From the NCBI GenBank assembly GCA_041690355.1, contig JAWLHK010000012.1, positions 1 to 64,000 of the forward strand: DNA of 64,000 bases, given 5' to 3'. Source of the stretch: JAWLHK01 sp041690355 [NCBI: bacterium] (lineage in GTDB: Bacteria; J088; JAWLBW01). Position 1 is the first letter of the stretch, and the number at the start of each line of letters is the position of its first letter. The notes below the pieces were generated by a model, which ran no database searches, was not told the origin of the DNA, and saw nothing but the letters and a program-made list of their open reading frames with translations. A program made the position numbers and the translations under genes. Below are positions 2,264 through 61,188 of this stretch, piece after piece.

Positions 2264-2298
2264 CAATGATCAATGGCCAATGATCAATGATCAATGGC
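2264..2298. repeat. Heptad tandem repeat array (CAATGAT/CAATGGC family)
   Basis: Five consecutive 7-bp units alternate between CAATGAT and CAATGGC with no spacer. The array lies in the 370-bp gap between acnA and the patatin gene. The rest of that gap (2299-2567) is GC-rich and I see no gene or clear signal in it. Confidence 0.85.
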
Positions 2299-2567
2299 CG
2301 AGAAGCAAGGGCGTGGGTGACCGGAGGGGAAGCCCGGTCTTCACGTCTGCCCGCTGGAGGATGCTCCCCGCATCCCTTCCGGTGAACAGGGGTTCTGCGT
2401 GCCGGAGGGGCGCTTCTCGATAGCCCGGGACGGAAGCCCCGGGATGACGGGGGGGTGTGCGGATTTCCCCGGGGTCGGAAGCGCCGGCACGGCGCGCGCG
2501 AGCCGTCCTTCATGTCCACGGCCGCAGCGATCAGGATAGCCCGGGGGACCGAGGGCGCACTGTGACG

Positions 2568-3848
2568 CTACGCGAATTCCTCGGTCTTGGGTCCCCCTCC
2601 AAGGGGAACGGCGGGGGGTGCCTCCAGGAACGCAATCAGCTCGTCACGGCGCTTCGCCGCATCCTCGTAACCCAGTTGCGCCAGACAGCGCGTGTACTTC
2701 GGCTCGAAGACCAGGTAGCTGAACAGCTCCCGCCCCTCGACGGGATTCAGGGAAAGCAGGCGCATGGCGAACCGCTCGAACGCGCTGAAGCTTTCGTCGA
2801 GATAGGGGTTGTGGCGCAAGAGTTCCGCAAAGACCTCAGACAGGTCACGGCTCGGCTGAATGGCCAGGGCCGAGACCCGCCGCAGACCGCGTCCCGCGAT
2901 GTCTTCCCGATCCGTCCCCGCCGCCAGATGCGCGTTGATGCGATCGAGAAAGTCGGAGCCGTAGACCTCGCTCCCCCAGTCGATCAGCTTGTTGATGCGC
3001 GTGAGCTGCTCCATGTCGTAGGTGACGCGATCCTGGAAGATGCTGTCGGCGATGGCCGCCGCGATGCGGCCCACTCCAGGGGGCGTGTCCTTGACGGGAT
3101 GCTGGGCCTTCTCCGGCGCATGCATGCCGATGACGAGCACCCGATCGGCGCCGAGCTGAATGGCCGGGCTGATCGGCGTATTCAGGTGCAGGCCGCCGTC
3201 GGAGTAGAAGCACTCGCGGATCTGCACGGCGGGAAAAACGAATGGGATCGAAGCGCTCGCCGCCACGTGCCGCGGGTCGATGGGCACGTCGTAGACGGGA
3301 TACGGGCCGTGGTACTCCACTTCGGGTCGCTTCTCGAGGAACAGCTCGGTGCGATTGTAGGTCAGGTTCGTGGCGGCGAGCACGATGCCGTCCAGGTGCC
3401 CCGCGGCCAGGTTCCGGCGGATGTTCCCGAAGGGGATCAATTCCTTCAGGTATCCGGGCAGCGGACGCGCGTCAAAGAGCGACACGAAGCCGCGGGCGAG
3501 CGGATTCCGCTGTTTGCCCGGATTGAAGCGGAGAAAGTTGCCGGCGATGCTCGAGGTGGTCTGCAGGATGAATTTGCCGACTTCAGACCAGTCGCGGCGG
3601 TAGATGCGATCGCCGTCGATGTTCTCCCAGAGGCTTCGCAGCATGACCCCCTGCTCGCGGGGGTCGTCGGCGAACGCAGCGAGAAAGGCGGCGTTCACGG
3701 CGCCGACGCTCGTGCCGCAGTAGAGATCGAAGGGGATGGACCGCCACGGCTCGGGGAGCCCCGTGCGCAGATAGTGGACGACGCCGGCCTCGTAGGCGCC
3801 GCGCGCCCCGCCGCCCGACAGCACCAGTGCCAGCCGCCCGCGTTCCAT
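2568..3848 (-). CDS. Patatin-like phospholipase family protein
   Basis: Probable lipid acyl hydrolase using a Ser-Asp dyad. The oxyanion motif GGGARG is at residues 12-17, the nucleophile elbow GTSVG at 45-49 (Ser47), and the second dyad element SDGG near residue 216 followed by a proline-containing loop, the standard patatin order. At 426 residues it is longer than the core domain; the C-terminal ~130 residues are helical and unassigned. There is no signal peptide, so it is probably cytoplasmic or peripheral. The gene stands alone, with a repeat-rich region upstream. Substrate (phospholipid or triacylglycerol) cannot be told from sequence. Confidence 0.9.
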   Translation of the reverse strand: MERGRLALVLSGGGARGAYEAGVVHYLRTGLPEPWRSIPFDLYCGTSVGAVNAAFLAAFADDPREQGVMLRSLWENIDGDRIYRRDWSEVGKFILQTTSSIAGNFLRFNPGKQRNPLARGFVSLFDARPLPGYLKELIPFGNIRRNLAAGHLDGIVLAATNLTYNRTELFLEKRPEVEYHGPYPVYDVPIDPRHVAASASIPFVFPAVQIRECFYSDGGLHLNTPISPAIQLGADRVLVIGMHAPEKAQHPVKDTPPGVGRIAAAIADSIFQDRVTYDMEQLTRINKLIDWGSEVYGSDFLDRINAHLAAGTDREDIAGRGLRRVSALAIQPSRDLSEVFAELLRHNPYLDESFSAFERFAMRLLSLNPVEGRELFSYLVFEPKYTRCLAQLGYEDAAKRRDELIAFLEAPPAVPLGGGPKTEEFA

Positions 3849-3873
3849 GCGCCCACATCATACCGTGCGCGAG

Positions 3874-3936
3874 GCGCAAAGCGCCAAGCGCCGAGCGCTG
3901 AGCGCCGAGCGCTGAGCGCCGAGCCCCAAGCATCAA
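3874..3936. repeat. Heptad tandem repeat array (GCGCCGA/GCGCTGA family), nine units
   Basis: Nine contiguous 7-bp units of the form GCGCYRA, changing to GCCCCAA and GCATCAA at the right end. It begins 25 bp upstream of the patatin start codon and abuts the palindromic element at 3938. Related arrays occur at 9669 and 19522. Confidence 0.9.
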
Positions 3937-3937
3937 T

Positions 3938-4067
3938 CCGTTCGTGTCGAGCCGACCGCCGGCAGCAGCGCGAACGGCGACAGCGAGACAGACGCCTGGT
4001 ACTACTGGTGCGCTCCCTCGCTGTCGGCTTCCACTCCCGTTTCGGCCCGTCAGCTCGGGACGAACGG
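3938..4067. repeat. Long palindromic intergenic element, copy A
   Basis: Starts with CCGTTCGTGTCGAGC and ends with the complementary GCTCGGGACGAACGG. A second inner inverted pair (GGCGACAGCGAG near 4000 and CTCGCTGTCGGC near 4017-4028) gives a long imperfect stem-loop of about 130 bp. A relative is at 9805-9949 with the same outer and inner arms. No open frame of note lies within it. With the heptad arrays on both sides it fills the 305-bp gap before the next gene. Confidence 0.75.
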
Positions 4068-4076
4068 TGTCCCTGA

Positions 4077-4107
4077 AATCGTCAATCGTAAATTGTCAAT
4101 CGTCAAT
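4077..4107. repeat. Heptad tandem repeat array (AATCGTC family)
   Basis: Four 7-bp units (AATCGTC, AATCGTA, AATTGTC, AATCGTC) and a partial fifth, ending 10 bp before the -35 box of the next gene. The same family recurs at 9989, 17239 (reverse), 17380 and 19626. Confidence 0.88.
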
Positions 4108-4116
4108 GGCCCTCAA

Positions 4117-4146
4117 TTGACACCCATGGCCCCTCCCGACTATCCT
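4117..4146 (+). promoter_or_regulatory. Sigma-70 promoter with -10 seven bases before ATG
   Basis: A consensus TTGACA (4117-4122), an 18-bp spacer and TATCCT (4141-4146). Only seven bases separate the -10 from the ATG at 4154, and no Shine-Dalgarno is present. Transcription should therefore start at or next to the start codon, giving a leaderless mRNA. Confidence 0.65.
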
Positions 4147-4153
4147 TGTAAGC

Positions 4154-4954
4154 ATGTCTCTCCCGCCCGTTCAGCCCACCGTCCGCAATGTAACGTTCGA
4201 CGTCGAGCAGGCGCCGCGCTACTGGCACGGCGGCGACCCGGCGATCACGGCGCTCTTCAATGCGCTGTCGACACTGTTCCCCGAAGGGGAGAAGTTCTTC
4301 ATCCGCAGCGTGCGCCAGTTCTCCGATCGCATCACGGATCCGCAGCTGCAGGAAGATGTGAAGGCCTTCTGCGGGCAGGAGGCCGTGCACAGCCGCGAAC
4401 ACGACCGCCTCAATGCGCATATTCATGCGGAATGGGGCGACATCGTCCGCAAGAAGGAACGCGCCATCGGCGGCTTGCTGCGCTGGGCCGAAAAGCGCAT
4501 GACGCCGCACTACCGGCTCGCCGTCACCTGCGCCATCGAGCACTGGACGGCCATGCTCGCCGAGGCCGTGCTGTCGAACCCGGATATGCTCAAGGACGCT
4601 CCGCCCGAGATGGCGGCTATCTGGCGCTGGCACGCCCGGGAAGAGATCGAGCACAAGGCGGTCGCCTTCGACGTCTTCCGCACGGTGGGCGGACCCTTCT
4701 GGCTGCGCGCGCTCGCGTTCTTCAACGAAAGCATCCTGTTCATGACCGTGCTCGGCGTCATGATCAACGCGCTGCTCAAGGTAGACGGTCAACCGCGCTT
4801 GCGCAGCTGGATGCGCATCCTGGGCTTCTTCTGGTTCGGCCCGGTGAACGGGTTCCGCGTCCTGCGCCGCTGGGTGAGCTACTTCAATCCACGGTTCCAC
4901 CCGTGGAAGCATGACGATCGACCGCTGCTGCAGGCGGCCGAGCAGTATACCTGA
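4154..4954 (+). CDS. PF10118-type predicted metal-dependent hydrolase
   Basis: 266 residues, matching in length and pattern the family of predicted metal-dependent hydrolases (PF10118), which have a ferritin-like helical look. Putative metal ligands are in a QEAVHSREHD segment near residues 75-84 and an REEIEHKAVAFDVF segment near 162-175. A hydrophobic stretch (about residues 190-215) may be membrane-associating. The biochemical reaction is not known for the family. It is monocistronic, with a strong promoter whose -10 leaves almost no leader. The alternative upstream frame (from 4093) is a shadow. Confidence 0.85.
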   Translation: MSLPPVQPTVRNVTFDVEQAPRYWHGGDPAITALFNALSTLFPEGEKFFIRSVRQFSDRITDPQLQEDVKAFCGQEAVHSREHDRLNAHIHAEWGDIVRKKERAIGGLLRWAEKRMTPHYRLAVTCAIEHWTAMLAEAVLSNPDMLKDAPPEMAAIWRWHAREEIEHKAVAFDVFRTVGGPFWLRALAFFNESILFMTVLGVMINALLKVDGQPRLRSWMRILGFFWFGPVNGFRVLRRWVSYFNPRFHPWKHDDRPLLQAAEQYT

Positions 4955-4960
4955 CGGTCG

Positions 4961-5004
4961 TCGGACCCCCCATCCGCTTCGCTACGGGGGGCAATGCGCC
5001 GGAC
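4961..5004. repeat. Dispersed intergenic hairpin repeat, copy 1, followed by further hairpins
   Basis: The block CCCCCCATCCGCTTCGCT continues into CGGGGGGCAATGCG, a C6/G6 hairpin. It is repeated almost exactly at 18941-18979. Two more hairpins follow in the same gap: CCCTCCTCCTC (5050-5060) with GAGGAGGAGGG (5065-5075), and GACCCGCC (5123-5130) with GGCGGGTC (5154-5161). The ~245-bp gap holds no gene. Confidence 0.7.
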
Positions 5005-5200
5005 CACCGACAGCGCCACCACCTCCCGCCTGCGCTGCCGCGCATGGCGCCCTCCTCCTCCAGCGAGGAGGAGGGGGGGAGTGCTCACCGATCGACAACT
5101 GTTCTTTCCCTTCGAGATCATTGACCCGCCGCCTTGCGAAGGCGGAGGGTCCGGGCGGGTCGATCCCGCCCGGGGGAGGTGGTAGATACCCGGCAGCCCC

Positions 5201-5812: not shown

Positions 5813-5890
5813 GCGCTCAGTGTACCGCACCGCCCGCCATGCGCGGGGCGCGCGTCTCCGGTAAACTGACCGCTTCGGAGGACGATTCGC

Positions 5891-7495: not shown

Positions 7496-7513
7496 GCCGT
7501 CGTCCGACGCTGG

Positions 7514-7543: not shown

Positions 7544-7549
7544 CGGATC

Positions 7550-9660: not shown

Positions 9661-9668
9661 AGGCTGTA

Positions 9669-9696
9669 GCGCCAAGCGCTGAGCGCTGAGCACAGA
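9669..9696. repeat. Heptad tandem repeat array (GCGCCAA/GCGCTGA family)
   Basis: Four 7-bp units (GCGCCAA, GCGCTGA, GCGCTGA, GCACAGA), starting 9 bp upstream of the ATG of the preceding minus-strand gene. Same family as 3874-3936. Confidence 0.8.
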
Positions 9697-9804
9697 GAAA
9701 GAATCTTTGAATCCGCAGGCCATTCGTCATTCAATTACTCGTAGCTTGTCTTCGGGGTCTCCCATCGGGGGACGGCAGGGAGGGGCATTCCGCGCCCGCC
9801 GTTT

Positions 9805-9949
9805 CCGTTCGTGTCGAGCCGACGGCCGGCAGCAGCGCCCCTCCCGTCGGGACAGGCTCCGGCGACGGCGAGACAGGCGCCCAGGCTCCCATGTGCGACC
9901 TCTCGCTGTCGCGTCCACTCCGTTCCCGCCGTCAGCTCGAGGCGAACGG
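9805..9949. repeat. Long palindromic intergenic element, copy B
   Basis: Begins CCGTTCGTGTCGAGCC and ends with complementary CGAACGG, with the same inner pair (GGCGACGGCGAGACAG and CTCGCTGTCGCG) as copy A at 3938-4067. The outer arms are nearly identical while the middle differs. It is flanked on the left by GCGCTGA heptads and on the right by AATCGTC heptads, the same order as around copy A. The 354-bp gap between genes holds only these repeats. Confidence 0.75.
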
Positions 9950-9988
9950 ATTCGTAGCCACTAGAGAATACAGAGGCCCTTTCCGGCA

Positions 9989-10019
9989 AATCGTCAATCG
10001 TAAATCGTCAATCGTCAAT
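9989..10019. repeat. Heptad tandem repeat array (AATCGTC family) overlapping a stop codon
   Basis: AATCGTC, AATCGTA, AATCGTC, AATCGTC, AATT. The minus-strand stop codon of the aminotransferase (10015-10017) lies inside the last unit. Confidence 0.9.
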
Positions 10020-11280
10020 TCCCCATGATTCCATCGACGACCCCCAGGGCCGCGTCGACCCGCTCCAGGATATCCTCGGCGAGCGCGCGATCCGTGGTCA
10101 GCGGGGGAAGAAGCTGCGCGACCCGCTTGTAGTTGCCCGCGTAGATCGAGAGGAATCCGTTGTCGTAGGCGGCCTTGGTGAAGACGGGTCCGCACATGTC
10201 GTTCACCATCTCGATCCCCATCATGAGCCCGCGTTGGCGCAGGCCCACGACGAGCTTCGGATACTTCGCGCGCAGCTCGACGAACCGCTCGGCAAAGAGC
10301 GCGCCCATCGCGCGCACGTTCTCAAGAAAGGCGGGATCCGAGGCGATGTCGAGCACCTCGGCCGCGACCGGACACCCCAGTTCCGCACCGCCGAAAGTAG
10401 AGATGTGGATGAAGGGGTCCTCGTGGAAGACCTTCTCGAGCGGCGCGCGGAAACAGGTCGCACTCATGGGATAGAATCCGCCGGAGAGCCCCTTGCCGAG
10501 CACGACGATGTCGGGAACGATCCCCTCGTGCTCGAATCCCCACAGCTTGCCCGTGCGACCGAGCCCGGTCTGCACCTCGTCGGCGATGTACAGGGCGCCG
10601 TAGCGGTCGCACAGGTCGCGCACCGCCCGCAGATACCCTTCGCGGGGAACGGCGATGCCGTAGGTCGCCGGAATCGTCTCGAGGATGACGGCGGCGACGT
10701 TCCCCTCACGCAGCGCGGCCTCGAGGGCGTCCTGATCTTCCCAGGGAACCTGGCGGAAACCTGGGAGCTGCGGTCCGAACGGCGCGCGGAACTTTTCGTC
10801 TCCCGTGGCGAGCGCGTACCCGGTGTGGCCGTGGTATCCACCGTGCGCCGAGACGATCGTCTGCCGGCCGGTATACGAACGGGCCACCTTGATGGCCAGG
10901 TCGACCGCTTCGCCGCCGCTCACGCCGAACACCGTGTACTGCAGGTCTCCAGGGAGCAGACCGGCCAGCTTCTGCGCCAGCGCCGCACGCTGTTCGCTCA
11001 GCAGATGATGGTTCCCGATGTCGAGTTCCTCGAGCGCCGCGCGCAAGACCCCAAGGATGCGGGGATTGCGATGGCCCAGGTTGAAGACGCCGCCGTTGCA
11101 GTGCGTGTTGATGAGCCGCTTCTCGCCGTCGAGATCCCACAGATACGGGCCCTCGCGCCGGCCGATCACGAAGTCGATGCCGACCGACGTGAAGAAGTCG
11201 GCTTTGCCCGACGAAACATGGCGGGCGAAGAGGTCGATGGCTTCCGGCTTGCCGAGACGGCCGATCCACTTTGCGGTCAT
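10015..11280 (-). CDS. Class III (pyridoxal phosphate) aminotransferase
   Basis: 421 residues, the usual length for the acetylornithine/ornithine/GABA aminotransferase family. Visible are the phosphate-binding region FGVSGGEAVDLAIK near residue 118, the cofactor aspartate in LYIADEVQTGLGRTG near 225-240, and the Schiff-base lysine in VVLGKGLSGG near 260. The start is ATG at 11280 with GGGAGG 7 bp upstream; the longer frame to 11325 enters a 37-bp repeat. The natural amino donor and keto acceptor cannot be named. It is transcribed from a region carrying one copy of that direct repeat. Confidence 0.9.
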   Translation of the reverse strand: MTAKWIGRLGKPEAIDLFARHVSSGKADFFTSVGIDFVIGRREGPYLWDLDGEKRLINTHCNGGVFNLGHRNPRILGVLRAALEELDIGNHHLLSEQRAALAQKLAGLLPGDLQYTVFGVSGGEAVDLAIKVARSYTGRQTIVSAHGGYHGHTGYALATGDEKFRAPFGPQLPGFRQVPWEDQDALEAALREGNVAAVILETIPATYGIAVPREGYLRAVRDLCDRYGALYIADEVQTGLGRTGKLWGFEHEGIVPDIVVLGKGLSGGFYPMSATCFRAPLEKVFHEDPFIHISTFGGAELGCPVAAEVLDIASDPAFLENVRAMGALFAERFVELRAKYPKLVVGLRQRGLMMGIEMVNDMCGPVFTKAAYDNGFLSIYAGNYKRVAQLLPPLTTDRALAEDILERVDAALGVVDGIMGN

Positions 11281-11300
11281 CCTGCCTCCCAAAGTGTCTA

Positions 11301-11337
11301 AGCGTACCACACCGTCCTTGCGCACGGCAGACCGGCC
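11301..11337. repeat. 37-bp direct repeat, copy 1 (partner at 12469-12505)
   Basis: Identical 37-bp blocks, beginning AGCGTACCACACCGTCC and ending GGCAGACCGGCC, lie at 11301-11337 and 12469-12505 in the same orientation. They bracket the lipoprotein gene. Copy 1 precedes the aminotransferase; copy 2 carries the -35 of the PEGA gene promoter. On the minus strand each contains TGGTACGCT, an extended -10-like sequence. Confidence 0.9.
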
Positions 11338-11451
11338 GTCGACTCATGCCACCCCGGCGGCCCTGCAGTAAGGGAGACGGCTATGGTGCGGTTTGCCCTT
11401 CAGAGGCTTCGTGAGCTGACCCAGCGAGGCGGTTCTGCAGCCCGCCCAACG

Positions 11452-12343: not shown

Positions 12344-12468
12344 GGATTCGTTTTCTGGCAGAAAGGTTGAACTCAAGCCGCGTTGAAGGTGGCAATGTAC
12401 GTTCGCGCCAAGGAGCTTAACTCGCGCCTGGCATGACTGCATATCCAAAATTGGGTATGCATCCGGAA

Positions 12469-12505
12469 AGCGTACCACACCGTCCTTGCGCACGGCAGAC
12501 CGGCC
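12469..12505. repeat. 37-bp direct repeat, copy 2
   Basis: Second copy of the block at 11301-11337, identical over 37 bp. It lies between the lipoprotein gene (minus) and the PEGA gene (plus) and supplies the -35 region of the latter. Confidence 0.9.
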
Positions 12506-12514
12506 CTCTACGAT
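12486..12514 (+). promoter_or_regulatory. Putative promoter of the PEGA-domain gene (leaderless type)
   Basis: TTGCGC (12486-12491), 17-bp spacer, TACGAT (12509-12514), six bases, then ATG at 12521. The same hexamer pair (TTGCGT, 17 bp, TACGAT) precedes yefM at 22972-23000. No ribosome-binding site is seen. Confidence 0.5.
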
Positions 12515-16781: not shown

Positions 16782-17240
16782 ATGAAACTGTGGAGCGAAG
16801 CCTTTTCCGACGGAGCCCCCATTCCCCCGCAGCACACCTGCGAGGGGGAGAACGGCTCGCCGGACCTGCGGATTGACGACGTGCCGGCGGGGACGCAGAG
16901 CCTGGTCCTGGTCGCCGAGGACCCCGATTACGCCCGGGGGGTCTGGGTGCATTGGCTGCGCTACGGCATTCCCCCCGAGGTCGAGCACGTGGCCGGCGAT
17001 ACCCCACCCGACGGCGAGCTGCCCGATGGCTCTCGCCAGGGGCGCAATGATTTCAACGAGTTAGGCTACGGCGGACCCTGTCCCCCGCGGGGGACGGAGC
17101 ACCGCTACGTCTTTCGCCTCTTCGCGCTCGACCAACCGCTCGCGCTGGGGCCGGGCGTCGACCGTGAAACGCTGCTCGGAGCCATGCGCGGTCACGTCCT
17201 GGCCGAAGCCCGCCTGACGGGAACCTGCCGGATCCATTGA
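16782..17240 (+). CDS. YbhB/YbcL-type PEBP-family protein
   Basis: 152 residues. Phosphatidylethanolamine-binding-like fold with the ligand-pocket signature: SPDLRIDDVPAGTQSL near 30-45, VAEDPDYARGVWVHWL near 47-62, and GYGGPCPPRGTEHRYVF near 94-110, the bacterial form of DPDxPxxxxxHW and GxHRYxF. Cytoplasmic; bacterial roles are mostly uncharacterised. ATG at 16782 is chosen over an upstream TTG (16767). The stop codon lies at the edge of a heptad array. Confidence 0.9.
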   Translation: MKLWSEAFSDGAPIPPQHTCEGENGSPDLRIDDVPAGTQSLVLVAEDPDYARGVWVHWLRYGIPPEVEHVAGDTPPDGELPDGSRQGRNDFNELGYGGPCPPRGTEHRYVFRLFALDQPLALGPGVDRETLLGAMRGHVLAEARLTGTCRIH

Positions 17241-17266
17241 CGATTTACGATCTACGATTGACGATT
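17239..17266. repeat. Heptad array (GACGATT/TACGATY), inverse of the AATCGTC family
   Basis: Four units: GACGATT, TACGATC, TACGATT, GACGATT. The first overlaps the PEBP stop codon. A direct-orientation array of the same family lies at 17380-17407, so the two can pair across ~113 bp of non-coding sequence. Confidence 0.88.
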
Positions 17267-17379
17267 TCCGGGCCGACCGCCTTTCGAGATTCCGCGCTGG
17301 GCAAGACTGCAACCCCTCGGATCGATTGGAGATTTTCTTGTTCGGGCCCGCGGCGAGCCGGAAGACGCTCGTTTCTTCA

Positions 17380-17407
17380 AATTGTCAATCGTCAATCGTC
17401 AATTGTC
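17380..17407. repeat. Heptad array (AATTGTC/AATCGTC)
   Basis: AATTGTC, AATCGTC, AATCGTC, AATTGTC, ending 7 bp before the -35 box of the DHH gene promoter. Complementary to 17239-17266. Confidence 0.88.
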
Positions 17408-17413
17408 ATTTCC

Positions 17414-17443
17414 TTGCGCCGGGGCCCCCTCGCGACCGATAAT
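17414..17443 (+). promoter_or_regulatory. Putative promoter of the DHH phosphoesterase gene
   Basis: TTGCGC (17414-17419), 18-bp spacer, GATAAT (17438-17443). The ATG is at 17464, so the leader would be only ~14 nt, with no visible Shine-Dalgarno. Confidence 0.45.
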
Positions 17444-18867: not shown

Positions 18868-18940
18868 GGTACCCGTGTGAACCCTTGCGGAGGGGGAGAG
18901 TGGGAGAGGGGGGGATTTTTCCGGTCATCGGACGCCGACA

Positions 18941-18979
18941 CCCCCCATCCGCTTCGCTTCGGGGGGCAATGCGTCGGAC
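18941..18979. repeat. Dispersed intergenic hairpin repeat, copy 2
   Basis: CCCCCCATCCGCTTCGCT followed by TCGGGGGGCAATGCG, matching 4961-5004 with two or three substitutions. It lies in the ~225-bp gap after the DHH gene, which otherwise holds G-rich runs and no gene. Confidence 0.75.
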
Positions 18980-19309: not shown

Positions 19310-19382
19310 GTCGTCATTAATCGAGAGCGTGGTGCGCGTGCATCTGATGTGAGAGCATCAAGATGCGGCGAGTCAACACAGG

Positions 19383-19410
19383 GGGTCGAGGGTCCAGAGT
19401 CGAGGGTCTA
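19383..19410. repeat. Heptad array (GGGTCGA family)
   Basis: GGGTCGA, GGGTCCA, GAGTCGA, GGGTCTA: four 7-bp units in the 320-bp gap before mpl. Three further arrays of other families follow in the same gap (19522, 19582, 19626); nothing else is seen there. Confidence 0.75.
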
Positions 19411-19521
19411 CAATCTGGAACCGGTCGGGCTCCTCGGCGCGCAGGGTACGGCAGGGGGATGAAAGCGCTCTTCTCCCGGCAGACTCCCCGGGCGTTTGCT
19501 ATGATCAGGGGCAGAAACCAA

Positions 19522-19549
19522 GCGCCGAGCGCCGAGCACCAAGCACCGA
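19522..19549. repeat. Heptad array (GCGCCGA/GCACCAA family)
   Basis: GCGCCGA, GCGCCGA, GCACCAA, GCACCGA. Same family as 3874-3936 and 9669-9696. Confidence 0.85.
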
Positions 19550-19581
19550 GTATGGAAAGGCAACCAGCTTTTTCGTTTGGG

Positions 19582-19616
19582 ATTCGTCACTCGTCACTCG
19601 TCACTCGTAACTCGTC
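19582..19616. repeat. Heptad array (ACTCGTC family)
   Basis: ATTCGTC, ACTCGTC, ACTCGTC, ACTCGTA, ACTCGTC. One-base relatives of the AATCGTC family, which begins 10 bp further on. Confidence 0.88.
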
Positions 19617-19625
19617 ACTTGCCTG

Positions 19626-19653
19626 AATCGTCAATCGTCAATCGTAAATCGTA
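19626..19653. repeat. Heptad array (AATCGTC/AATCGTA family) just before mpl
   Basis: AATCGTC, AATCGTC, AATCGTA, AATCGTA, ending 7 bp before the mpl ATG. It therefore occupies the position expected for the ribosome-binding site, and no Shine-Dalgarno is present. Confidence 0.9.
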
Positions 19654-19660
19654 AATTTGT

Positions 19661-21109
19661 ATGCGTCCTCCCGTTCCCTCGCTCGACAACGTTCGCCACG
19701 TGCACCTGATTGCCGTCGCCGGCACCGGCATGGGCTCGCTCGCCCAGATGCTCAAGGAGCGCGGCCTGCGCGTCACCGGCAGCGACCAGAACGTCTATCC
19801 GCCCATGAGCACGCAGCTCCTGGCGAAGGGCATCGAGATTCGCGAGGGGTACAAGGCCGGCAACCTGGCCGACCGGCCCGACCTGGTCGTCGTGGGGAAT
19901 GCGGTGAGCAAGACGAACCCCGAGGTCGAGGCGCTGCTGGCGAGCGGCATCCCCTACGTCAGCTTTCCCGAGGCAATCGAGACCTTCTTTCTCCCCGATC
20001 GCACGAGCGTCGTCATCGCCGGCACGCACGGCAAGACGACGACGACCAGCCTCACGGCGTGGATGCTGGAATCGGCCGGTCTCCAGCCCGGATTCATGAT
20101 CGGCGGCATGGCGAAGAACTTCGGCGAGAACGGCCGCGCCGGACGCGGAAAACCCTTCGTCATCGAGGGGGATGAATACGACTCCTGCTTCTTCGACAAG
20201 GAGCCGAAGTTTCTGCACTACCGCCCCGAAATCGGCGTACTCACGAGCGTCGAGTTCGACCACGGCGACATCTACAAGAGCTTCGACATCCTGCTCGAGA
20301 AGTTCGCGAAGTACCTCGCGCTCGTTCCCGCCCACGGCCTGGTCATCGCCTGCACCGACTACCCCGCCATCCGCGACCTGCTGGCGCAAGGGCACGCGAA
20401 GGCGCCCGTGGTCACCTACGGGTTCGAGGGGAATCCGACGTGGAGCGCGACCGACCTGGTTCCGCAGAATGGGGGCACCGCGTTCACCGTGGCGCGCGAG
20501 GGTAAACCCGGGGCGCGCTTCACGATTCCGCTCACCGGGCGCCACAACGTGCTGAATGCGCTCTCCGTCATCGCCGTGGCCGACCGGCTGGGCCTGACGG
20601 ACGCCGTCGTGCAGAAGGGATTCGACGGCTTTCACGGCATCACGCGGCGGCAGGATCTCGTCGCCACCGCCGACGGCGTCGCCATCTACGACGACTTCGC
20701 CCACCATCCGACGGCCATTGCCGAGACGATCGACGCCATCCGCATGCGCCATCCGGGGCAGCGGATTTTCGGCCTTTTCGAACCGCGCTCGAACACCAGC
20801 CGACGCAACATCTTCCAAGCGGAATTTCCCCCCGCGCTCGCCCATGCGGATCACGTCGTCATGGCCCCCGTCTTCAACGCCGATAAGCTTTCCGATGCGG
20901 AACGGCTCGATGTGTCCCGGGTCCTCGCCGACGTGCGCGCCCTGGGCAAGGCGGCCGACGCGCCGGGGGACGTGGACGCCATCGTGGCCTTTCTCGCGAC
21001 CGAGGCGAAGCCGGGCGACGTCGTGCTCGTCATGAGCAACGGCGGTTTCGGCGGAATTCACGGGAAGCTTGCCGCCGCGCTCACCGCGCGGGCGGCAAGC
21101 CATTCCTGA
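19661..21109 (+). CDS. mpl: UDP-MurNAc:L-Ala-gamma-D-Glu-meso-DAP ligase
   Basis: 482 residues. Mur-ligase three-domain layout: N-terminal UDP-binding domain with IAVAGTGMGSLAQML near 16, central ATP domain with P-loop AGTHGKTTTT near 119-128, and the Mpl-typical EGDEYDSCFFDKEPKF segment near 170 that separates it from MurC. C-terminal domain contains DDFAHHPTAI near 345. It reattaches the recycled tripeptide to UDP-MurNAc in murein recycling, in the cytoplasm. The gene appears monocistronic. Both ends touch heptad repeats: an array ends 7 bp before the ATG and another overlaps the stop codon. Confidence 0.93.
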   Translation: MRPPVPSLDNVRHVHLIAVAGTGMGSLAQMLKERGLRVTGSDQNVYPPMSTQLLAKGIEIREGYKAGNLADRPDLVVVGNAVSKTNPEVEALLASGIPYVSFPEAIETFFLPDRTSVVIAGTHGKTTTTSLTAWMLESAGLQPGFMIGGMAKNFGENGRAGRGKPFVIEGDEYDSCFFDKEPKFLHYRPEIGVLTSVEFDHGDIYKSFDILLEKFAKYLALVPAHGLVIACTDYPAIRDLLAQGHAKAPVVTYGFEGNPTWSATDLVPQNGGTAFTVAREGKPGARFTIPLTGRHNVLNALSVIAVADRLGLTDAVVQKGFDGFHGITRRQDLVATADGVAIYDDFAHHPTAIAETIDAIRMRHPGQRIFGLFEPRSNTSRRNIFQAEFPPALAHADHVVMAPVFNADKLSDAERLDVSRVLADVRALGKAADAPGDVDAIVAFLATEAKPGDVVLVMSNGGFGGIHGKLAAALTARAASHS

Positions 21110-21200
21110 TGCCTGATGCTTGATTCCTGAGCCGGCAAGGACACGCTCCGACTAGCCTAGCATTCCTGATTCCTGATTCTTAATTCCTGAGCCGGCAAGG
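21102..21200. repeat. Two heptad arrays (ATTCCTG family) in a ~60-bp duplication
   Basis: Array 1 (21102-21129): ATTCCTG, ATGCCTG, ATGCTTG, ATTCCTG. Array 2 (21162-21189): ATTCCTG, ATTCCTG, ATTCTTA, ATTCCTG. Each is followed by AGCCGGCAAGG. The mpl stop codon (21107-21109) lies in the first unit. Confidence 0.88.
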
Positions 21201-23531: not shown

Positions 23532-23563
23532 CCGGTTCCCGGAGGAACCGCGTTGCCCCCCTC

Positions 23564-23584
23564 GGGCATCGGCCATCGGGCATT
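23564..23584. repeat. Heptad array (GGGCATC/GGCCATC family)
   Basis: GGGCATC, GGCCATC, GGGCATT between yoeB and the convergent aldo-keto reductase gene. Same family as 24635 and 60837. Confidence 0.75.
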
Positions 23585-23600
23585 GCGCGGCTCTGCCGCG

Positions 23601-24634: not shown

Positions 24635-24662
24635 GGGCATCGACCATCGACCATTGATCATT
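24635..24662. repeat. Heptad array (GGGCATC/GACCATC/GATCATT)
   Basis: GGGCATC, GACCATC, GACCATT, GATCATT, in the gap between the aldo-keto reductase and rhodanese genes (divergent). Confidence 0.8.
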
Positions 24663-24703
24663 CGCGCAGCGTCTCCATGCGCGGAATGGGGTACCATATC
24701 CGC

Positions 24704-25066
24704 ATGTCTTCCATCATCCTCGGCCTCGTCATCGCCATCATTCTCTTCGCGCTCCTGCGCTTCGCCATGGGTGCGGGGGTGCCGCGCATCAGCGGTCCCG
24801 AGGCCAGGAAGCTGGTCTCCGAGGGCGCCCTGTTCGTTGACGTGCGTAACCCTCCCGAATTGCAGGGCGGCCGTAACCGCGAGGCGAAGAATATTCCGCT
24901 CGGCGATCTGAAAGGCCGCATGGGGGAGCTGGGAAGCAAGGATCGGCCCATCATCCTCTGCTGCGCCTCGGGCACCCGCTCGGCCATGGCCGGCCGCATG
25001 CTCAAGTCGGCCGGGTATACGAAGGTCTACAACCTGGGCCCCTGGCACCGGTATCCTTCTTCCTGA
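24704..25066 (+). CDS. Membrane-anchored rhodanese-like protein
   Basis: 120 residues. Residues 1-23 are a single N-terminal membrane span (SIILGLVIAIILFALLRFAM). The rest is one rhodanese domain: LFVDVRNPPELQGG near 44-57 and the active-site loop CCASGTRSAMAG near 86-97, with Cys86/87 able to carry a persulfide. Probably faces the periplasm or cytoplasm close to the inner membrane; sulfur donor role inferred. TACCAT lies six bases before the ATG, so a leaderless mRNA is possible, although the -35 is poor. Confidence 0.88.
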   Translation: MSSIILGLVIAIILFALLRFAMGAGVPRISGPEARKLVSEGALFVDVRNPPELQGGRNREAKNIPLGDLKGRMGELGSKDRPIILCCASGTRSAMAGRMLKSAGYTKVYNLGPWHRYPSS

Positions 25067-42092: not shown

Positions 42093-42965
42093 CTACGCTT
42101 GGTCCCGATCCGGCGTCCGGCGCCCGCCCTCCGCCCCGGGGCGATGGAAGTCGGGCCGCTCGTCGAGCCAGGTGCTCCGGCCGCGAAACCGGAGGCCCTC
42201 GCGCAGGAGCGCTTCGTGCGGCCCGGCGTAGTAGACGCGCTCGAGGTAGAGCCCGTCGGGAGGCGCCGTCTGACCCGCCCGCCTGCGGTCGCATGCCTGA
42301 ATGACGGCCGCCATTTCGGCTGCAGAGCGCTTGCCGAGACCGACCTCGACCAGGGTGCCGACGATATTGCGCACCATGTATTTCAGAAACCCCTCGCCCG
42401 CAATGCGGAAGTGGAGCTCGTCGCCCACCGCCTGCCAGCCCACGCGGAAGATGGTGCGCACGGTCTCTTCGACTTCGGTGTTGGTGGCCTGAAACGAAGC
42501 GAAGTCGTGGCGCCCGGCCAGGGCCGTGGCGGCCTCGATCATGGCCTCGAGATCGAGGGGTGCGACGACGTGCCAGACACGCCCGCGATCGAGCGCCGTG
42601 CGCTGACGACGGTTAAGAATCCGGTAACAGTACGTCTTCGAGAGGGCGCTGCGGCGCGCGTGAAATTCAGCCGGCATCTCGGCGATCCCGAGCAGCGCGA
42701 TGTCGCGGGGGAGGTGGTGATTGACGCCGCCGCGCAGGGCGTCGAGCGGCAGGTCGGTCTCGAGCTCGACGTTGCCGACCTGAAACATCGCGTGCACGCC
42801 CGCATCGGTGCGGCCGCTGCAGTGCACGACGGGGGGCTCGGCCGATCCAGTGAGCCGCTGCAGGGCTCGGCGCACTTCGTCGTGAACCGTGCGGCGACCG
42901 GGCTGCAGCTGCCATCCGGAAAAAGCGGCGCCGTCGTATTCGAGAATCAGCCCCAGGTTGCGCAT
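42093..42965 (-). CDS. truA: tRNA pseudouridine(38-40) synthase
   Basis: 290 residues. TruA motif GRTDAGVHAM near 51-60 contains the catalytic Asp. Other family segments: LEYDGAAFSGWQLQPG near 8-23 and FLKYMVRNIVG near 198. Modifies the anticodon stem of tRNA. The last ~30 residues (RPDFHRPGAEGGRR) are an extension. Follows the outer-membrane protein by 16 bp; last gene of the asd operon. Confidence 0.95.
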   Translation of the reverse strand: MRNLGLILEYDGAAFSGWQLQPGRRTVHDEVRRALQRLTGSAEPPVVHCSGRTDAGVHAMFQVGNVELETDLPLDALRGGVNHHLPRDIALLGIAEMPAEFHARRSALSKTYCYRILNRRQRTALDRGRVWHVVAPLDLEAMIEAATALAGRHDFASFQATNTEVEETVRTIFRVGWQAVGDELHFRIAGEGFLKYMVRNIVGTLVEVGLGKRSAAEMAAVIQACDRRRAGQTAPPDGLYLERVYYAGPHEALLREGLRFRGRSTWLDERPDFHRPGAEGGRRTPDRDQA

Positions 42966-55947: not shown

Positions 55948-56076
55948 TTACCACTGGGGGCGTGCGGGGGTCAAGGAAATCGAGGGGGGAGTGAGGAGGG
56001 CGGGAAGGAAGAACCTGTGCTGCGCACGGGGCCAACGCCCTTGACGCGCGCGCGACGACCATGAACACTGCAGGAC

Positions 56077-56388
56077 ATGGCCGGTGAGACTCCGATTCAC
56101 ACGACCCCGGTGTCGTTCGACGACGCGCGCGGCACGCAGGTCGTCTTCATCTTCAACTCCATTCACCGGGTACTCAAGGCCGAGCAGACGTTGAAGCGCG
56201 CGGGCATCCCGTTTCGCCTGGTGCCCACGCCGCGGCCGCTCGTATCCGACTGCGGCATGGCCATCCTCGGCGCGCGCGAAGACGCAGAACGGATACACGC
56301 GTCCCTCGCAGGCGAGCGTCTGCGGATCGTGAAGCTGTTTGCGGGGGACGAAAACGGCTGGTGGCCGGTCAACCTGCCGGCTGCTTGA
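56077..56388 (+). CDS. DUF3343-domain protein
   Basis: 103 residues. DUF3343 core VVFIFNSIHRVLKAEQTLKR near 22-41, IPFRLVPTPRPLVSDCGMAI near 44-63. The SDCGMA motif with its Cys is conserved and the family is proposed to carry sulfur or selenium. It lies alone on the plus strand; the 3' ends of it and thiE overlap by 20 bp. No selenium-metabolism partner gene is nearby. Confidence 0.85.
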   Translation: MAGETPIHTTPVSFDDARGTQVVFIFNSIHRVLKAEQTLKRAGIPFRLVPTPRPLVSDCGMAILGAREDAERIHASLAGERLRIVKLFAGDENGWWPVNLPAA

Positions 56389-56992: not shown

Positions 56993-58497
56993 GACTTCGC
57001 CTTGGCCTGCTTGAGGTCGATGCCGCAATCCTGGATTTTCTTACGGAGCGTGTTCCGATTGATGCCCAGAATCTCGGCGGCCCGGATCTGGTTGCCGCGG
57101 GTTTCGCGCAGCACGAGCTCGAGCATCGGCTTTTCGACGCGGCTCATGATCTGGTCATAAAGGTTCGTGACTTCGGTCGTCGAAACGCGGGCGATGAACT
57201 GCTCGAGCTTGCGGTAGACGATTTCGTCGAAGCTCTTGTCGAACCAGTCGTCGCCCACGGGCTGCGGGGGCGGCTGCGCCGCACCGGTCGCAGGGACGGC
57301 GCCGAAGTCGTCGGCGGTCAGGGTCTGGCCGGTCGAGAGAAGCGCAACACGCTTCACGACGTTTTCGAGTTCGCGCACGTTGCCCGGCCAGTTCTGGCGT
57401 TTGAGCCATTCGATGGCCGAGGGAGAAAGGCGCTTCTGGCCGTAGCCGAGCTCCTGGCCGTACTTGCGCAGGAAGTACCCGGCCAGGAGGGGGATGTCTT
57501 CACGCCGCTCGCGCAGCGGCGGGAGATCGATGGGGACGACGTTAAGCCGGTAATACAGATCTTCGCGGAACGTGCCGGCGCCGACCATCTCGGCGAGGTT
57601 ACGGTTGGTGGCCGCAATGACCCGCACGTCGACTTTCTGCGAGCCCGCGCCGCCGAGGGGCGCGATCTCACGCTCCTGCAGGGCACGCAGAATCTTCACC
57701 TGGAGGTCGGCCGGCATGTCGCCGATTTCGTCGAGAAACAGGGTGCCGCCGTCGGCCAGTTTGAACTTGCCCTCCTTGCGCTGGAAGGCCCCCGTGAACG
57801 AGCCGCGCTCATGGCCGAAGAGCTCGCTCTCGAGCAGCTCGTGCGGAATGGCCGCCGCGTTGATGGTGACGAAAGGACCGCCCGCGCGCGACGAGTGGTA
57901 GTGGATGGCCCGGGCGACGAGCTCCTTGCCGGTACCGCTCTCGCCGGTCACGAGCACGGTCACGTCGCTTGCCGCGACCTTACCGACCATCTTGTACACG
58001 TCACGCATGCGCGGGCTGTCGCCGATGATCTGCTCGCCCGGTTCGAACTGGCGCTCGACGGCGGCGCGCAGGCGCACCAGTTCTTCCTGCACCTTCACGC
58101 TGTTGCCCGCCTTGTCGGCGAGCAGAAGCACCTCGTCGAGCTCGAACGGCTTGGTGATGTAGTCGAAGGCTCCCGCCTTCATGGCCTCGATGGCGTTCTT
58201 GACGGTGTTCTGCGCAGTCATGACGATGATCGCCGGCGCCTGCGGTTTCCCCTTCACCGAGCGCACCAGCGAAAGGCCGTCGGCCCCCGGCATGATGATG
58301 TCGACGAAGGCGACCTGAAAAGCCTCGCGCTCCATGGCGGCCCGCGCTTCTTCGGCCGACGCGACGCTGGTCACCTCGTGCCCCCCCTTGCCAAGCGCGC
58401 GCTCGAGCACGAAGCGCAGACTGGGATCGTCGTCGACAATCAGAATACGGAAGCCCATGGTCACACCTTCTTTCGCTTCATTCGCCGTGGCACTCAT
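56989..58497 (-). CDS. ntrC: NtrC-family sigma-54 response regulator
   Basis: 502 residues. Receiver with FVDIIMPGADG (phospho-Asp near 63); AAA+ domain with Walker A GESGTGKE near 182, the sigma-54 contact loop as GSFTGA rather than GAFTGA near 229, and Walker B LFLDEIGD; C-terminal Fis-type helix-turn-helix NQIRAAEILGINRNTLRKK. Activates nitrogen-control sigma-54 promoters. ATG 58497 overlaps the ntrB stop and has GGAGG upstream; an internal ATG (58458) is an alternative. Confidence 0.94.
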   Translation of the reverse strand: MSATANEAKEGVTMGFRILIVDDDPSLRFVLERALGKGGHEVTSVASAEEARAAMEREAFQVAFVDIIMPGADGLSLVRSVKGKPQAPAIIVMTAQNTVKNAIEAMKAGAFDYITKPFELDEVLLLADKAGNSVKVQEELVRLRAAVERQFEPGEQIIGDSPRMRDVYKMVGKVAASDVTVLVTGESGTGKELVARAIHYHSSRAGGPFVTINAAAIPHELLESELFGHERGSFTGAFQRKEGKFKLADGGTLFLDEIGDMPADLQVKILRALQEREIAPLGGAGSQKVDVRVIAATNRNLAEMVGAGTFREDLYYRLNVVPIDLPPLRERREDIPLLAGYFLRKYGQELGYGQKRLSPSAIEWLKRQNWPGNVRELENVVKRVALLSTGQTLTADDFGAVPATGAAQPPPQPVGDDWFDKSFDEIVYRKLEQFIARVSTTEVTNLYDQIMSRVEKPMLELVLRETRGNQIRAAEILGINRNTLRKKIQDCGIDLKQAKAKS

Positions 58498-59597
58498 GCC
58501 GGTCCTCCGTCGCCTGCAGGCGCTCCCGATGCGGCCCCGCGCGAGGGGCCCTCGAGGGGGAGCACCATGGTGAACACCGTTTTTCCCTCGCCGCTGTCGA
58601 CTTCGAGCACACCGCCGTGCTCACGCAGAAGGCGCAGGCTGATGGCCAGCCCGAGCCCCGTGCCGCTCGTCTTGGTCGTGAAAAACGGCGTGAAGAGTTT
58701 TTCCTTGGCCTCGGCGCTCAACCCGGGTCCGCCGTTCTGGATCTCGACGTTGACGACCCGCCGCGCGGCGATGCGCCGGCCGCCGATCTCGATGCGGGTG
58801 CGCACGACGACCGGCTCGGCGGGCGGAGACGCCTCGAACGCGTTCTTGATCAGATTGACCGCCACCTGCTGCAGGGCATCGCTGTCGGCCACGACGTCGG
58901 GGAGCGACGGATCGTAGTCCCGGTGCACTTCGCGGCCCGAGAAGGCGGGGTCGCGCAACAGGGTTTCGAGCACGGCGTCGAGCAGGCGGTGAATGTTCAC
59001 GGGCGCCATGTTGAGCGCGCGCGGATTGCCGAAATCGAGCAGTTCTTCGAGCAGGCGATTGATGCGGCGCACGTCCCGGTCGATGACCGCGAGGCACTCC
59101 CGCGCGTCGTCGGCGAGCGCTTCGGATCGCAGCAGCTGCGCCGCGCCGAGAATGCCCCCGAGCGGATTCTTGATTTCGTGCGCCAGGCCCGCGGCAAGAA
59201 TCCCGAGCTGGCGCAGACGATCTTCGCGGCGCATGGCTTCGCTCATGTGCGCGAGCGAGCTCTCGTCGCGGATCTGCACGACCGTCCCCGACACGGCCCC
59301 CTCGGCAGAAAACAGCGGCGTCACGACGACGGTCACGAGCACGTTCTCGCCGTTTCCCGCGCCGCGCGCGAGGGGAACCATGTAGTAGACCTGTTTGCCC
59401 GCCTGGGTCATGGCGCGGGCGAGCGCTTCGGAAAGCCAGGGATTGGCCGCGACGAGCTCGCGCCAGGTCTCATGGAAAACCTCGGCGTCGCCGCCCAGCA
59501 GCCCGGCGGCCGCGGGGTTCGCGAACACGAGCCCGCCGGCCGGGTCAAAGGCGAGCACGGTCTCTTCGAGCCCCTCGAGAATCACGCGGGGCGGCAT
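58494..59597 (-). CDS. ntrB: NtrB-family nitrogen sensor histidine kinase
   Basis: 367 residues from ATG 59597. PAS-like N-terminal sensor (LEETVLAFDPAGGLVFANPA), phosphoacceptor H in GLAHEIKNPLGGILGAAQL near 139-157, then the ATPase with NLIKNAFEASPP near 256 and GTGLGLAI near 326. Cytoplasmic; no transmembrane segment, as expected for NtrB. Signals to ntrC through PII. It begins 7 bp after dus. Confidence 0.95.
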   Translation of the reverse strand: MPPRVILEGLEETVLAFDPAGGLVFANPAAAGLLGGDAEVFHETWRELVAANPWLSEALARAMTQAGKQVYYMVPLARGAGNGENVLVTVVVTPLFSAEGAVSGTVVQIRDESSLAHMSEAMRREDRLRQLGILAAGLAHEIKNPLGGILGAAQLLRSEALADDARECLAVIDRDVRRINRLLEELLDFGNPRALNMAPVNIHRLLDAVLETLLRDPAFSGREVHRDYDPSLPDVVADSDALQQVAVNLIKNAFEASPPAEPVVVRTRIEIGGRRIAARRVVNVEIQNGGPGLSAEAKEKLFTPFFTTKTSGTGLGLAISLRLLREHGGVLEVDSGEGKTVFTMVLPLEGPSRGAASGAPAGDGGPA

Positions 59598-59604
59598 GGG
59601 CCAC

Positions 59605-60678
59605 TCAACCCCAGCCGCGCTCTTCCCACCAGGCCTGCTCCTGGGCATCCTCGGCCTCCATTTTCTGGGGTTCCACGGGGAGCGCTTCGCTCCAGCGGCG
59701 CTCATATTCCGCAATGAAACCACGTACGTCATCGGCCGCCTGCAGGGTGCCCACGCGGGCGCGCAGCTCGCGCACGTTGCGCATCCCCTTGCCGTACCAG
59801 AGCAGGTGCTTGCGGAACTCGCGCACGGCGCGGAACTCGCCGTGGAATTCCACATACATCTCGAAATGTTCGCGCAGCAGCGCCGCCCGCTCGGCCGCGG
59901 GGATCTCGTCGACCGCCTCGCCGCGGAAGAGCGCGCGGATCTGGCGGAAGATCCACGGGCGGCCGGTAGCGCCGCGGCCGATCATGACGAGCCCGCGCGG
60001 ATGCTCGCGATGGCGCGCCATTGCCTGCTCGGGGGTCACGACGTCACCGCTGCCGATGATGGGGATCTTCACGCCGTCCTGCGTGGCGGCCACGAGCGAC
60101 CAGTCGGCCGTTCCCTCGTAGCCCTGGGCGCGCGTGCGCGGATGCAGCGTGACGGCGTCGGCCCCTTCGCTTTCGGCCACACGGGCGATTTCGGGGGCGT
60201 TGACCGTCCCCTCGTCCCAGCCGGCGCGAATCTTGATCGTGACCGGCAGGCGGGTGCGCGCGCGGATGCCCGCCACGATCTTCCCGAGTCGCGGCGGATC
60301 GCAAAGCAGGGCCGCGCCGGCGCCGGTCTTCACGACCTTCTTCACGGGGCAGCCCATGTTCACGTCGACCAGATCGGCGAGCCCTTCCCCCTCGAGGCGC
60401 GCGGCGGCTTCCCCCAGTTCCGCCGGATCGTTGCCGAACAGCTGCACGCCCAGCGGCCGCTCTTCGGGAAGGCTCGCCAGATACCGCTGGGTCCCCTTGC
60501 CGCCGCGCAGAAGTCCCTTGGCGCTGACCATCTCGGTAAACGCGAGCGCGGCTCCTTCGCGCCGGCAGAGCAGGCGAAAGGGGAGATCGCTGACGCCGGC
60601 CATGGGCGCCACGACGAACGGATTGTCGAGCACCAACGGACCGATGCGGAACGATTTCTGCGGGTTGGATTCGGACAT
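59605..60678 (-). CDS. dusB: tRNA-dihydrouridine synthase
   Basis: 357 residues. FMN TIM barrel: VVAPMAGVSDLPFRLLCR near 22-39, VDVNMGCPVKKVVKTGAGAA near 104-123 with the catalytic Cys, and GWDEG plus GSGDVVTP near 208. The order dus-ntrB-ntrC matches nifR3-ntrBC of other proteobacteria. It probably heads the operon; a short AT-rich region lies upstream. Subtype B is assigned by context. Confidence 0.93.
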   Translation of the reverse strand: MSESNPQKSFRIGPLVLDNPFVVAPMAGVSDLPFRLLCRREGAALAFTEMVSAKGLLRGGKGTQRYLASLPEERPLGVQLFGNDPAELGEAAARLEGEGLADLVDVNMGCPVKKVVKTGAGAALLCDPPRLGKIVAGIRARTRLPVTIKIRAGWDEGTVNAPEIARVAESEGADAVTLHPRTRAQGYEGTADWSLVAATQDGVKIPIIGSGDVVTPEQAMARHREHPRGLVMIGRGATGRPWIFRQIRALFRGEAVDEIPAAERAALLREHFEMYVEFHGEFRAVREFRKHLLWYGKGMRNVRELRARVGTLQAADDVRGFIAEYERRWSEALPVEPQKMEAEDAQEQAWWEERGWG

Positions 60679-60765
60679 TTTGCCTAAAAGATAGGCATTG
60701 TACAGCAGCGAAGATGGATGCCGCAATGAGTCGGGGCTAAGAGACCGGCTCCCCCGATGTTGGAT

Positions 60766-61188
60766 TCAAGCGGTTTCGCCCTTGGTCGGCGGCAACGTCG
60801 TGAAGGCGGGCTCAAGCACCGGTTCTTGATGGGATTGAGCATCGGCCATCGGCCATTGGGCATTTTCGAGCGGCAGCGCGGCCTCTCCTTCGCGCTGGGC
60901 GGCCTGCAGCAGCTCGGCTGCCTTGCCCGCCCGATACGCATGCTTCAGCCACGTGAGCACCGCGACGTTGGCCAGCGTGACCGTGTTGGCGACGATGAGG
61001 ATGGGATCCAGGCGCAGCAGCGAGTAGAACAGCCACATGACGATTCCCACGCCGTACGTCACCAGCATTCCCCAGCTCAAGTCCTGGACGGAGCGGGTGC
61101 GAAGGGCGCGAATGATCTGGGGGATGAGGCTGGTGCAGGTGAGCGCGGTTGCAATCGAGCCGACGACTTGAACGCCGAGCGTGTCCAT
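60766..61188 (-). CDS. SemiSWEET-like sugar transporter with a C-terminal extension
   Basis: 140 residues from ATG 61188. Three transmembrane helices and a PQ-loop TSLIPQIIRALRTRSVQDLS near 19-38, the signature of SemiSWEET transporters (normally ~85-100 residues). The C-terminal ~45 residues (from ~92) are hydrophilic and unusual; they include codons made by a heptad array (60837-60864), so the extension may be repeat-derived. Function is proposed from family. Confidence 0.87.
   Translation of the reverse strand: MDTLGVQVVGSIATALTCTSLIPQIIRALRTRSVQDLSWGMLVTYGVGIVMWLFYSLLRLDPILIVANTVTLANVAVLTWLKHAYRAGKAAELLQAAQREGEAALPLENAQWPMADAQSHQEPVLEPAFTTLPPTKGETA
60837..60864. repeat. Heptad array (GGCCATC family) inside a coding region
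   Basis: GAGCATC, GGCCATC, GGCCATT, GGGCATT. It lies in the 3' part of the SemiSWEET gene and encodes NAQWPMADAQ-like residues. Same family as 23564 and 24635. Confidence 0.75.

Follow-up and report, generated by a model that had tools for sequence, protein, structure and literature searches.

The 64-kb window analysed here (positions 1 to 64,000 of contig JAWLHK010000012.1 from the bacterium JAWLHK01 sp041690355; 65% GC) contains 14 tandem arrays of degenerate 7-nt units, which we tentatively read as parts of very small non-coding intergenic hairpin elements. Such elements would consist of 7-nt modules, be copied locally, and change length in 7-nt steps. A module is about six kept letters plus one or two free letters. 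The window shows a strict period of 7, several words (AATCGTC, ACTCGTC, AGCGCYR, CAATGRY, NCATYGR, and ATTCCTG), two copies of a composite, arrays of one word with matching order of units, and a single inverted pair, which folds. The comparative results below come from class-level relatives, not from the window's own genome. In these relatives, an array that has a like neighbour is usually one arm of a convergent inverted pair, in which both arms use the same word and flank a variable spacer; the arms are predicted to form stem-loops that pair in phase, and paired stretches are present or absent, in differing words, at the same gene junction.

Arrays were called strict where lag-7 identity reached at least 17/21, and looser settings of 12/14 and 11/14 were also used. 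The strict setting gives 14 arrays at period 7, none at 4, 5, 6, 8, 9, 10, or 11, one at 12, five at 14 (a harmonic), and one at 18; 20 Markov-1 resamples of the window yielded no strict period-7 array. At 12/14 there are 14 period-7 arrays against 0.3 expected, with 0–2 at periods 4–6 and 8–11 and three at 12. A chance origin is ruled out by the resamples together with the neighbouring periods. Within the gaps between genes (35 of at least 40 bp, 8,905 bp in all), lag 7 has the highest autocorrelation of lags 3–22 (z 6.7), followed by lags 4 (z 3.2), 3 (3.1), 21 (3.0), and 8 (2.9).

An earlier description of this DNA, the sequence-only reading, had reported a strict 7-bp period in several word families and proposed the autocorrelation check. 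Both observations are borne out, and the check holds in the window as well as in gaps of two relatives, G300 (z 16.4 at lag 7 versus 5.4 at lag 8) and G321 (13.4 versus 2.3). Fourteen of the 17 array positions it gave fall in 13 strict arrays, with 19582 and 19626 merging into 19576–19659; positions 19383 and 23564 emerge, weakly, at the 11/14 setting only, and 21219 fails even there. Tandem Repeats Finder recovers all 13 of these strict arrays plus one at 23562, and finds neither 19383 nor 21219.

Gene calls in the window and the relatives were made with a purpose-written script. Twelve of the 14 strict arrays are mostly non-coding, the exceptions being 60837 (in a doubtful open reading frame, ORF) and 42109 (in a gene). 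The gene-boundary placement claimed earlier stands, and the claim that all arrays are intergenic holds for these twelve. Arrays 9986, 17236, and 21102 overlap the end of a called gene by a few bases. Since 0.857 of the window is coding, the arrays fall in non-coding DNA far more often than its share would predict. Strict degenerate 7-nt units between genes identify these arrays as intergenic heptad tandem repeats, a kind also termed short tandemly repeated repetitive sequences or long simple sequence repeats. They are not of the G-quadruplex kind, since no strict window word has GGG in every unit, and the window has no Rfam match at the gathering score.

Two stretches of the window, 3867–4107 and 9668–10023, are laid out alike, with an AGCGCYR array on the left, a hairpin in the middle (folded lengths 137 and 149 nt, respectively), and an AATCGTC array on the right. 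Their AATCGTC arrays (4076–4112 and 9988–10024) are 92% alike over 37 nt, and the first of them (4071–4109) is 90% alike over 39 nt, flanks included, to the inverted stretch 17234–17272. All three AATCGTC arrays (4077, 9986, and 17236) have AATCGTA as their second unit. Because these arrays are alike and keep the same unit order, some arrays are copies and not independent births. The first 32 bases of the composite hairpin core have no exact match in IMG/VR. Within 200 bp, 3 of the 14 arrays have an inverted partner and 2 a direct one, versus 0 at random places; among like words the only inverted partners are 17236/17376, apart from 42109 (coding). This pair is in divergent order for its word, and the stretch holding both arms (17225–17420) folds with z −2.96, with 3 of 200 shuffles as good.

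The best LeuA match among relatives is 65%; the best LeuB matches, of 68–72%, are in genomes of the class of G001. A 19-mer of the AATCGTC type (at most two mismatches) occurs in 15 of 118 genomes of this class, with 56 matches in G321, 28 in G300, and 12 in G302. We identified 36 period-7 arrays in 280 kb of G300 and 37 in 138 kb of G321, which belongs to a family of 25 genomes, and no arrays at periods 4–6, 8, 10, or 11 in the same stretches. Most of the stretches had been picked for AATCGTC-like matches (20/20 in G321, 15/20 in G300), so these array densities are biased upward. In G277, of the same class, 400 kb at places chosen regardless of word matches contain no period-7 array. The other genomes were sampled by 4–72 kb only. 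Arrays are present in samples of G259, G315, G326 (where tallies count some arrays twice, from two overlapping stretches), G283, G221, G212, and others, and absent from those of G289, G327, G001, and G002 (40–57 kb each) and of G328, G329, and G308 (8–18 kb each). G289 has several short matches elsewhere to a stem found between rplR and rpsE in G321, so its absence applies to its 40-kb sample.

Units of eight also occur. In G326, G324, G259, and G237, period-8 arrays combine the core GTTCAA (or its complement) with a spacer of two letters, and G326 carries this core with both one- and two-letter spacers. Other period-8 words are found in G315, G221, G302, G246, and one place of G259. Separately, the gaps of G300 are raised at lags 6 (z 9.4), 15 (z 11.6), 14, and 21, of which lags 6 and 15 are unexplained by heptads. 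The exact sequence (AATCGTC)3 was also found in 36 IMG/VR stretches (L081–L116), from viral-collection contigs of 38–68% GC; L088 and L095 are full of further heptads, and others carry TTTAGGG- or GGGATAA-type arrays.

An inverted partner lies within 200 bp of 25 of the 36 arrays in G300, 23 of the 37 in G321, and 12 of the 24 in other family members, compared with direct partners for 2, 6, and 0 and random places for 2, 1, and 4, respectively. Neighbouring chains within 200 bp in G300 and G321 are convergent in 38/45 cases for GTCAAT and 13/14 for TGCAAA, the paired arrangement known from Geobacter and Xanthomonas heptads. Arms are predicted to pair in phase for 474/477 and 181/181 pairs, with the free position least paired (0.51 and 0.57), and seven test folds of such pairs have z from −2.99 to −6.20. 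Of the 73 arrays in the two genomes, 8 lie in called genes; excluding these and 9 at stretch ends leaves 56 arrays with a gene on both sides, at a median distance of 13 bp from a gene. Within a gap, the A-rich arm tends to be the left one and the T-rich arm the right one (21, 9 / 5, 21; P 1.8e-4).

Paired stretches turn over at individual gene junctions. At L209, the junction of rplR and rpsE (genes identified by Pfam), G321 has a heptad pair that is absent from G300. This junction is readable in 24 of the 25 family genomes, with gaps of −1 to 33 bp in 18 and of 72–91 bp in six. The long gaps of G321, G212, G315, and G308 contain clear inverted heptads (read by eye in the last three) with folds of z −3.1 to −6.9, and these four pairs comprise three words, G212 and G315 having the same one. 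On a tree built from the two genes flanking the trait, the long gap requires six changes, at least five of them forced by well-supported branches, and the trait is unclustered. G308 and G304 are 95–100% identical in blocks around this junction (88.7% over another 2,961-bp stretch), with gaps of 85 and 13 bp, respectively. Six differences in 36 coding nucleotides at the edges, counted by eye, suggest patch replacement rather than clean insertion, and no clean target duplication was seen at this junction. The word at a given junction also varies among relatives upstream of leuB and at L206:2013–2168; at the latter, G289 and G283 have no evident array.

At another junction, G321 carries a heptad pair and G300 (contig C81; L221:1–700) a 472-bp stretch bounded on either end by CATTCCCGC-type repeats. 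This stretch contains a 98-amino-acid ORF that resembles a GIY-YIG nuclease by eye only.

Taken as locally copied elements, these arrays would gain new copies by short local copying, in which like arrays engage in template switching or short-patch recombination. Once formed, arrays would drift in length via 7-nt slippage, and copies would persist where they are least harmful, between genes. Conceivably, the stem-loops might act on the joined messenger. We infer that the mostly unpaired arrays of the window arise by the same process as the pairs of the relatives.

Several observations weigh against this interpretation. Among the 14 window arrays the inverted partners amount to 17236/17376, plus the coding 42109; in IMG/VR contigs inverted partners were found for only 12 of 47 arrays (direct partners for 5, random places 2); and several IMG/VR contigs carry perfect homogeneous arrays, as expected of simple slippage. 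Two long rplR–rpsE gaps, those of G271 and G325, are degenerate (also read by eye) and fold like shuffles (z −0.64 and −0.49). No copying step was observed. Moreover, the free letters of the two arms show no correspondence (48 versus 49 expected; 23 versus 26 expected), so neither arm is a recent fold-back copy of the other, and a fold-back origin is rejected.

Plain simple-sequence repeats, arising by 7-nt replication slippage followed by random mutation and tolerated only between genes, are one alternative; the slippage step is perhaps set by the stretch of DNA held by the polymerase (hypothesis of Mrazek et al. 2007, as cited). The sequence-only reading had suggested slippage, and it finds partial support in G321 and G300, where aligned arrays differ in phase by whole units, 7 bp at L190:1949 and 21 bp at L200. 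The perfect IMG/VR arrays agree with it too, as do reports, cited in the accessible parts of PMC4679880 and PMC4692102, that heptads outnumber other long repeats in many genomes. However, the variable letters in G300 and G321 sit at fixed word positions (units accepted with at most three core mismatches). Among 225 units accepted with at most one core mismatch, the letter after GTCAAT is C in 72, A in 67, G in 82, and T in 4. In a unit-independence test under the same limit of one mismatch, adjacent units are no more alike at position 7 than units of different arrays, for both GTCAAT (0.37 versus 0.32, P 0.08) and TTTGCA (0.41 versus 0.42). The units behave as though each had been drawn separately from a degenerate word, a pattern not expected of plain recent slippage. 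The recurrence of one word across many loci within a genome, and its use in convergent pairs, also weigh against slippage. We consider slippage on its own unlikely.

Alternatively, the arrays could be sites of a putative DNA- or RNA-binding protein, with core letters under selection and sites set in inverted pairs; IHF/HU-type proteins were proposed by the Geobacter metallireducens genome authors for their paired classes, in the accessible part of their account. Between G321 and G300, core letters change less than the free letter (8/144 versus 4/24, P 0.07), in a comparison of six aligned arrays of which one (L206) is aligned to unrelated DNA. At L202/L171 both arms are conserved between these genomes and the loop is replaced. 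Inside their arrays T follows GTCAAT in 2/111 cases, compared with 20/218 elsewhere; the missing word would read TTGACA, a −35 box, on the opposite strand. Selection for binding fits poorly with many words per genome and differing words at the same junction in relatives, and divergent, promoter-bearing gaps make up 23% of gap DNA yet contain only 5 of the 56 placed arrays. No protein was identified, and we regard this explanation as improbable. Similarly doubtful is a process in this lineage that would repeatedly write 7-nt-phased stem-loops at the same junctions, with new words each time and free letters set independently per unit; its copying step (7 nt, or 8 nt around an unchanged core in some genomes) would lie outside the Y1 transposases and reverse transcriptases checked.

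Movement by a dedicated enzyme, either a Y1 transposase (associated with repetitive extragenic palindromes, REPs, or of IS200 type) or a template-carrying reverse transcriptase, is very unlikely. REPs, their bacterial interspersed mosaic elements (BIMEs), and the palindromes of miniature inverted-repeat transposable elements (MITEs) are small, dispersed, intergenic, hairpin-forming, and often inside operons. The present inverted elements resemble them in being dispersed, intergenic, and hairpin-forming, and one G321 hairpin subfamily with a homologous interior has further copies at 89–94%. REPs carry a tetranucleotide mark and accompany a REP-associated tyrosine transposase (RAYT) gene, and MITEs are marked by a target duplication and by an interior specific to the family; neither has a tandem 7-nt build. 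By eye, loops are mostly unrelated between the present elements, and the REP/RAYT arrangement of an element beside its own Y1 gene was not found in 20 Y1 stretches of the relatives.

Y1 transposase genes were found in 29 of the 29 genomes searched, most in G326 (19 matches) and G212 (18), but also in G277, where 400 kb contain no array. None of 20 newly fetched Y1 stretches (L242–L261, 2.9–5.5 kb each, most from array-bearing genomes) has a heptad array, and in a 21st (L197) arrays lie about 1.7 kb and more away. In these genomes and stretches Y1/RAYT and IS200-type drive finds no support, and it is rejected. The RT-like mechanism suggested by the sequence-only reading finds no support either: RVT_1 occurs in 7 of 20 genomes, absent from 6/10 array-bearing and present in 3/10 array-poor ones, although genomes may be incomplete and the array-poor group was judged from small samples, some members having a few arrays. 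With no association across these 20 genomes, reverse-transcriptase drive is rejected as well.

Table 1. Arrays and hairpins of the 64-kb window, by position.
Feature	Position	Strand	Context and basis
CAATGRY array	2264..2299	+	Intergenic; Tandem Repeats Finder and period scan
AGCGCYR array, left part of composite copy 1	3867..3931	+	19 bp from start of patatin-like gene 2568-3848 (-)
Long hairpin, core of composite copy 1	3936..4072	+	Aligns to copy 2; fold z -3.97, 0/200 shuffles as good
AATCGTC array, right part of composite copy 1	4077..4107	+	Period scan and self-comparison
AGCGCYR array, left part of composite copy 2	9668..9697	+	Period scan and self-comparison
Long hairpin, core of composite copy 2	9803..9951	+	Fold z -5.94, 0/200 shuffles as good
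AATCGTC array, right part of composite copy 2	9986..10023	+	Period scan and self-comparison
AATCGTC array (ATTGACG on + strand)	17236..17267	-	Period scan and self-comparison
AATYGTC array	17376..17413	+	Inverted partner of 17236-17267 (14/15)
Weak GGGTCNA array	19381..19404	+	Found at 11/14 setting only
AGCRCCR array	19517..19552	+	Period scan
ACTCGTC array, then AATCGTC array	19576..19659	+	Ends 2 bp upstream of Mur-ligase-family gene 19661-21109 (+)
ATTCCTG array, first copy of 54-nt direct duplicate	21102..21130	+	Period scan and self-comparison
ATTCCTG array, second copy (87%)	21161..21190	+	Period scan and self-comparison
Short NCATYGG array	23559..23588	+	Tandem Repeats Finder; 11/14 setting
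NCATYGA array	24635..24662	+	15 bp upstream of rhodanese-like gene 24677-25066 (+)
14th strict array	42109-42136		GC-rich; inside called gene; outside the sequence-only reading; counted as coding noise
NCATYGG array	60837..60864	+	Within doubtful ORF

Two other repeats were noted in the window. A 40-nt non-heptad repeat with a C6...G6 stem has two copies (95%) outside called genes (4965–5004 and 18940–18979), and a 44-nt repeat has two copies (95%) just upstream of neighbouring called genes (11300–11343 and 12468–12511).

Heptads have been reported since 2007 as the commonest long bacterial tandem repeats, with the slippage hypothesis alone offered for the number seven, as cited in the accessible parts of PMC4679880 and PMC4692102, both of which describe heptads as over-represented among long repeats in many genomes. 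In the relatives, hairpin arms that come and go at the same junctions in different words make this old question of why seven testable. Pairs of relatives in which one genome has an element at a junction and the other lacks it (G308/G304 and G321/G300), together with a class spanning array-rich genomes and one with none in 400 kb, provide a comparative test bed for the origin and possible role of the arrays.

The sequence-only reading had held that several heptad families side by side were not well described. This claim of novelty fails, as the kind is already known from Geobacter metallireducens, Xanthomonas, and Calothrix. As far as the accessible part of PMC2700814 goes, G. metallireducens has at least two heptad classes, a 49-copy element of four GGGACCG heptads and a class of five MTYCTGA heptads, as well as octad classes, with GTTGCTYN octads. 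Three classes occur mostly as opposite-strand pairs at variable distances. The elements are mostly intergenic, and the authors interpreted them as binding sites of global regulators not yet known or of regulatory RNAs; in Geobacter sulfurreducens a different sequence occupies the same junction (proBA). The present system is similar in its several word classes per genome, its pairs (in the relatives), its mostly intergenic position, and the differing sequence at one junction, and differs in its words and in the mostly unpaired arrays of the window. The available text of that account contains no unit-level or many-genome junction comparison.

According to the accessible part of PMC4692102, Xanthomonas GGGAATC/GGGANTN heptads form 70 (Xcc) and 75 (Xac) convergent pairs, Nostoc GGGGAYT heptads form few, and both are intergenic, with 2–26 units and fixed variable positions; Calothrix, cited there, has three heptads. 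The Xanthomonas and Nostoc heptads differ from the present arrays in being G-rich, G-quadruplex-forming, and of a single word. The TAACTGA heptads of marine Beggiatoaceae are intergenic direct repeats, mostly of 2–6 units and patchy among lineages (PMC4679880, accessible part); unlike the present arrays, they comprise one word, mostly exact, with a single indirect repeat in the genome studied. The literature searched, in its accessible parts, yielded no many-genome junction comparison of heptad pairs. The heptad array is thus a known kind, to which the present work adds this junction comparison, the unit-independence test, and the negative tests for Y1 transposases and reverse transcriptases.

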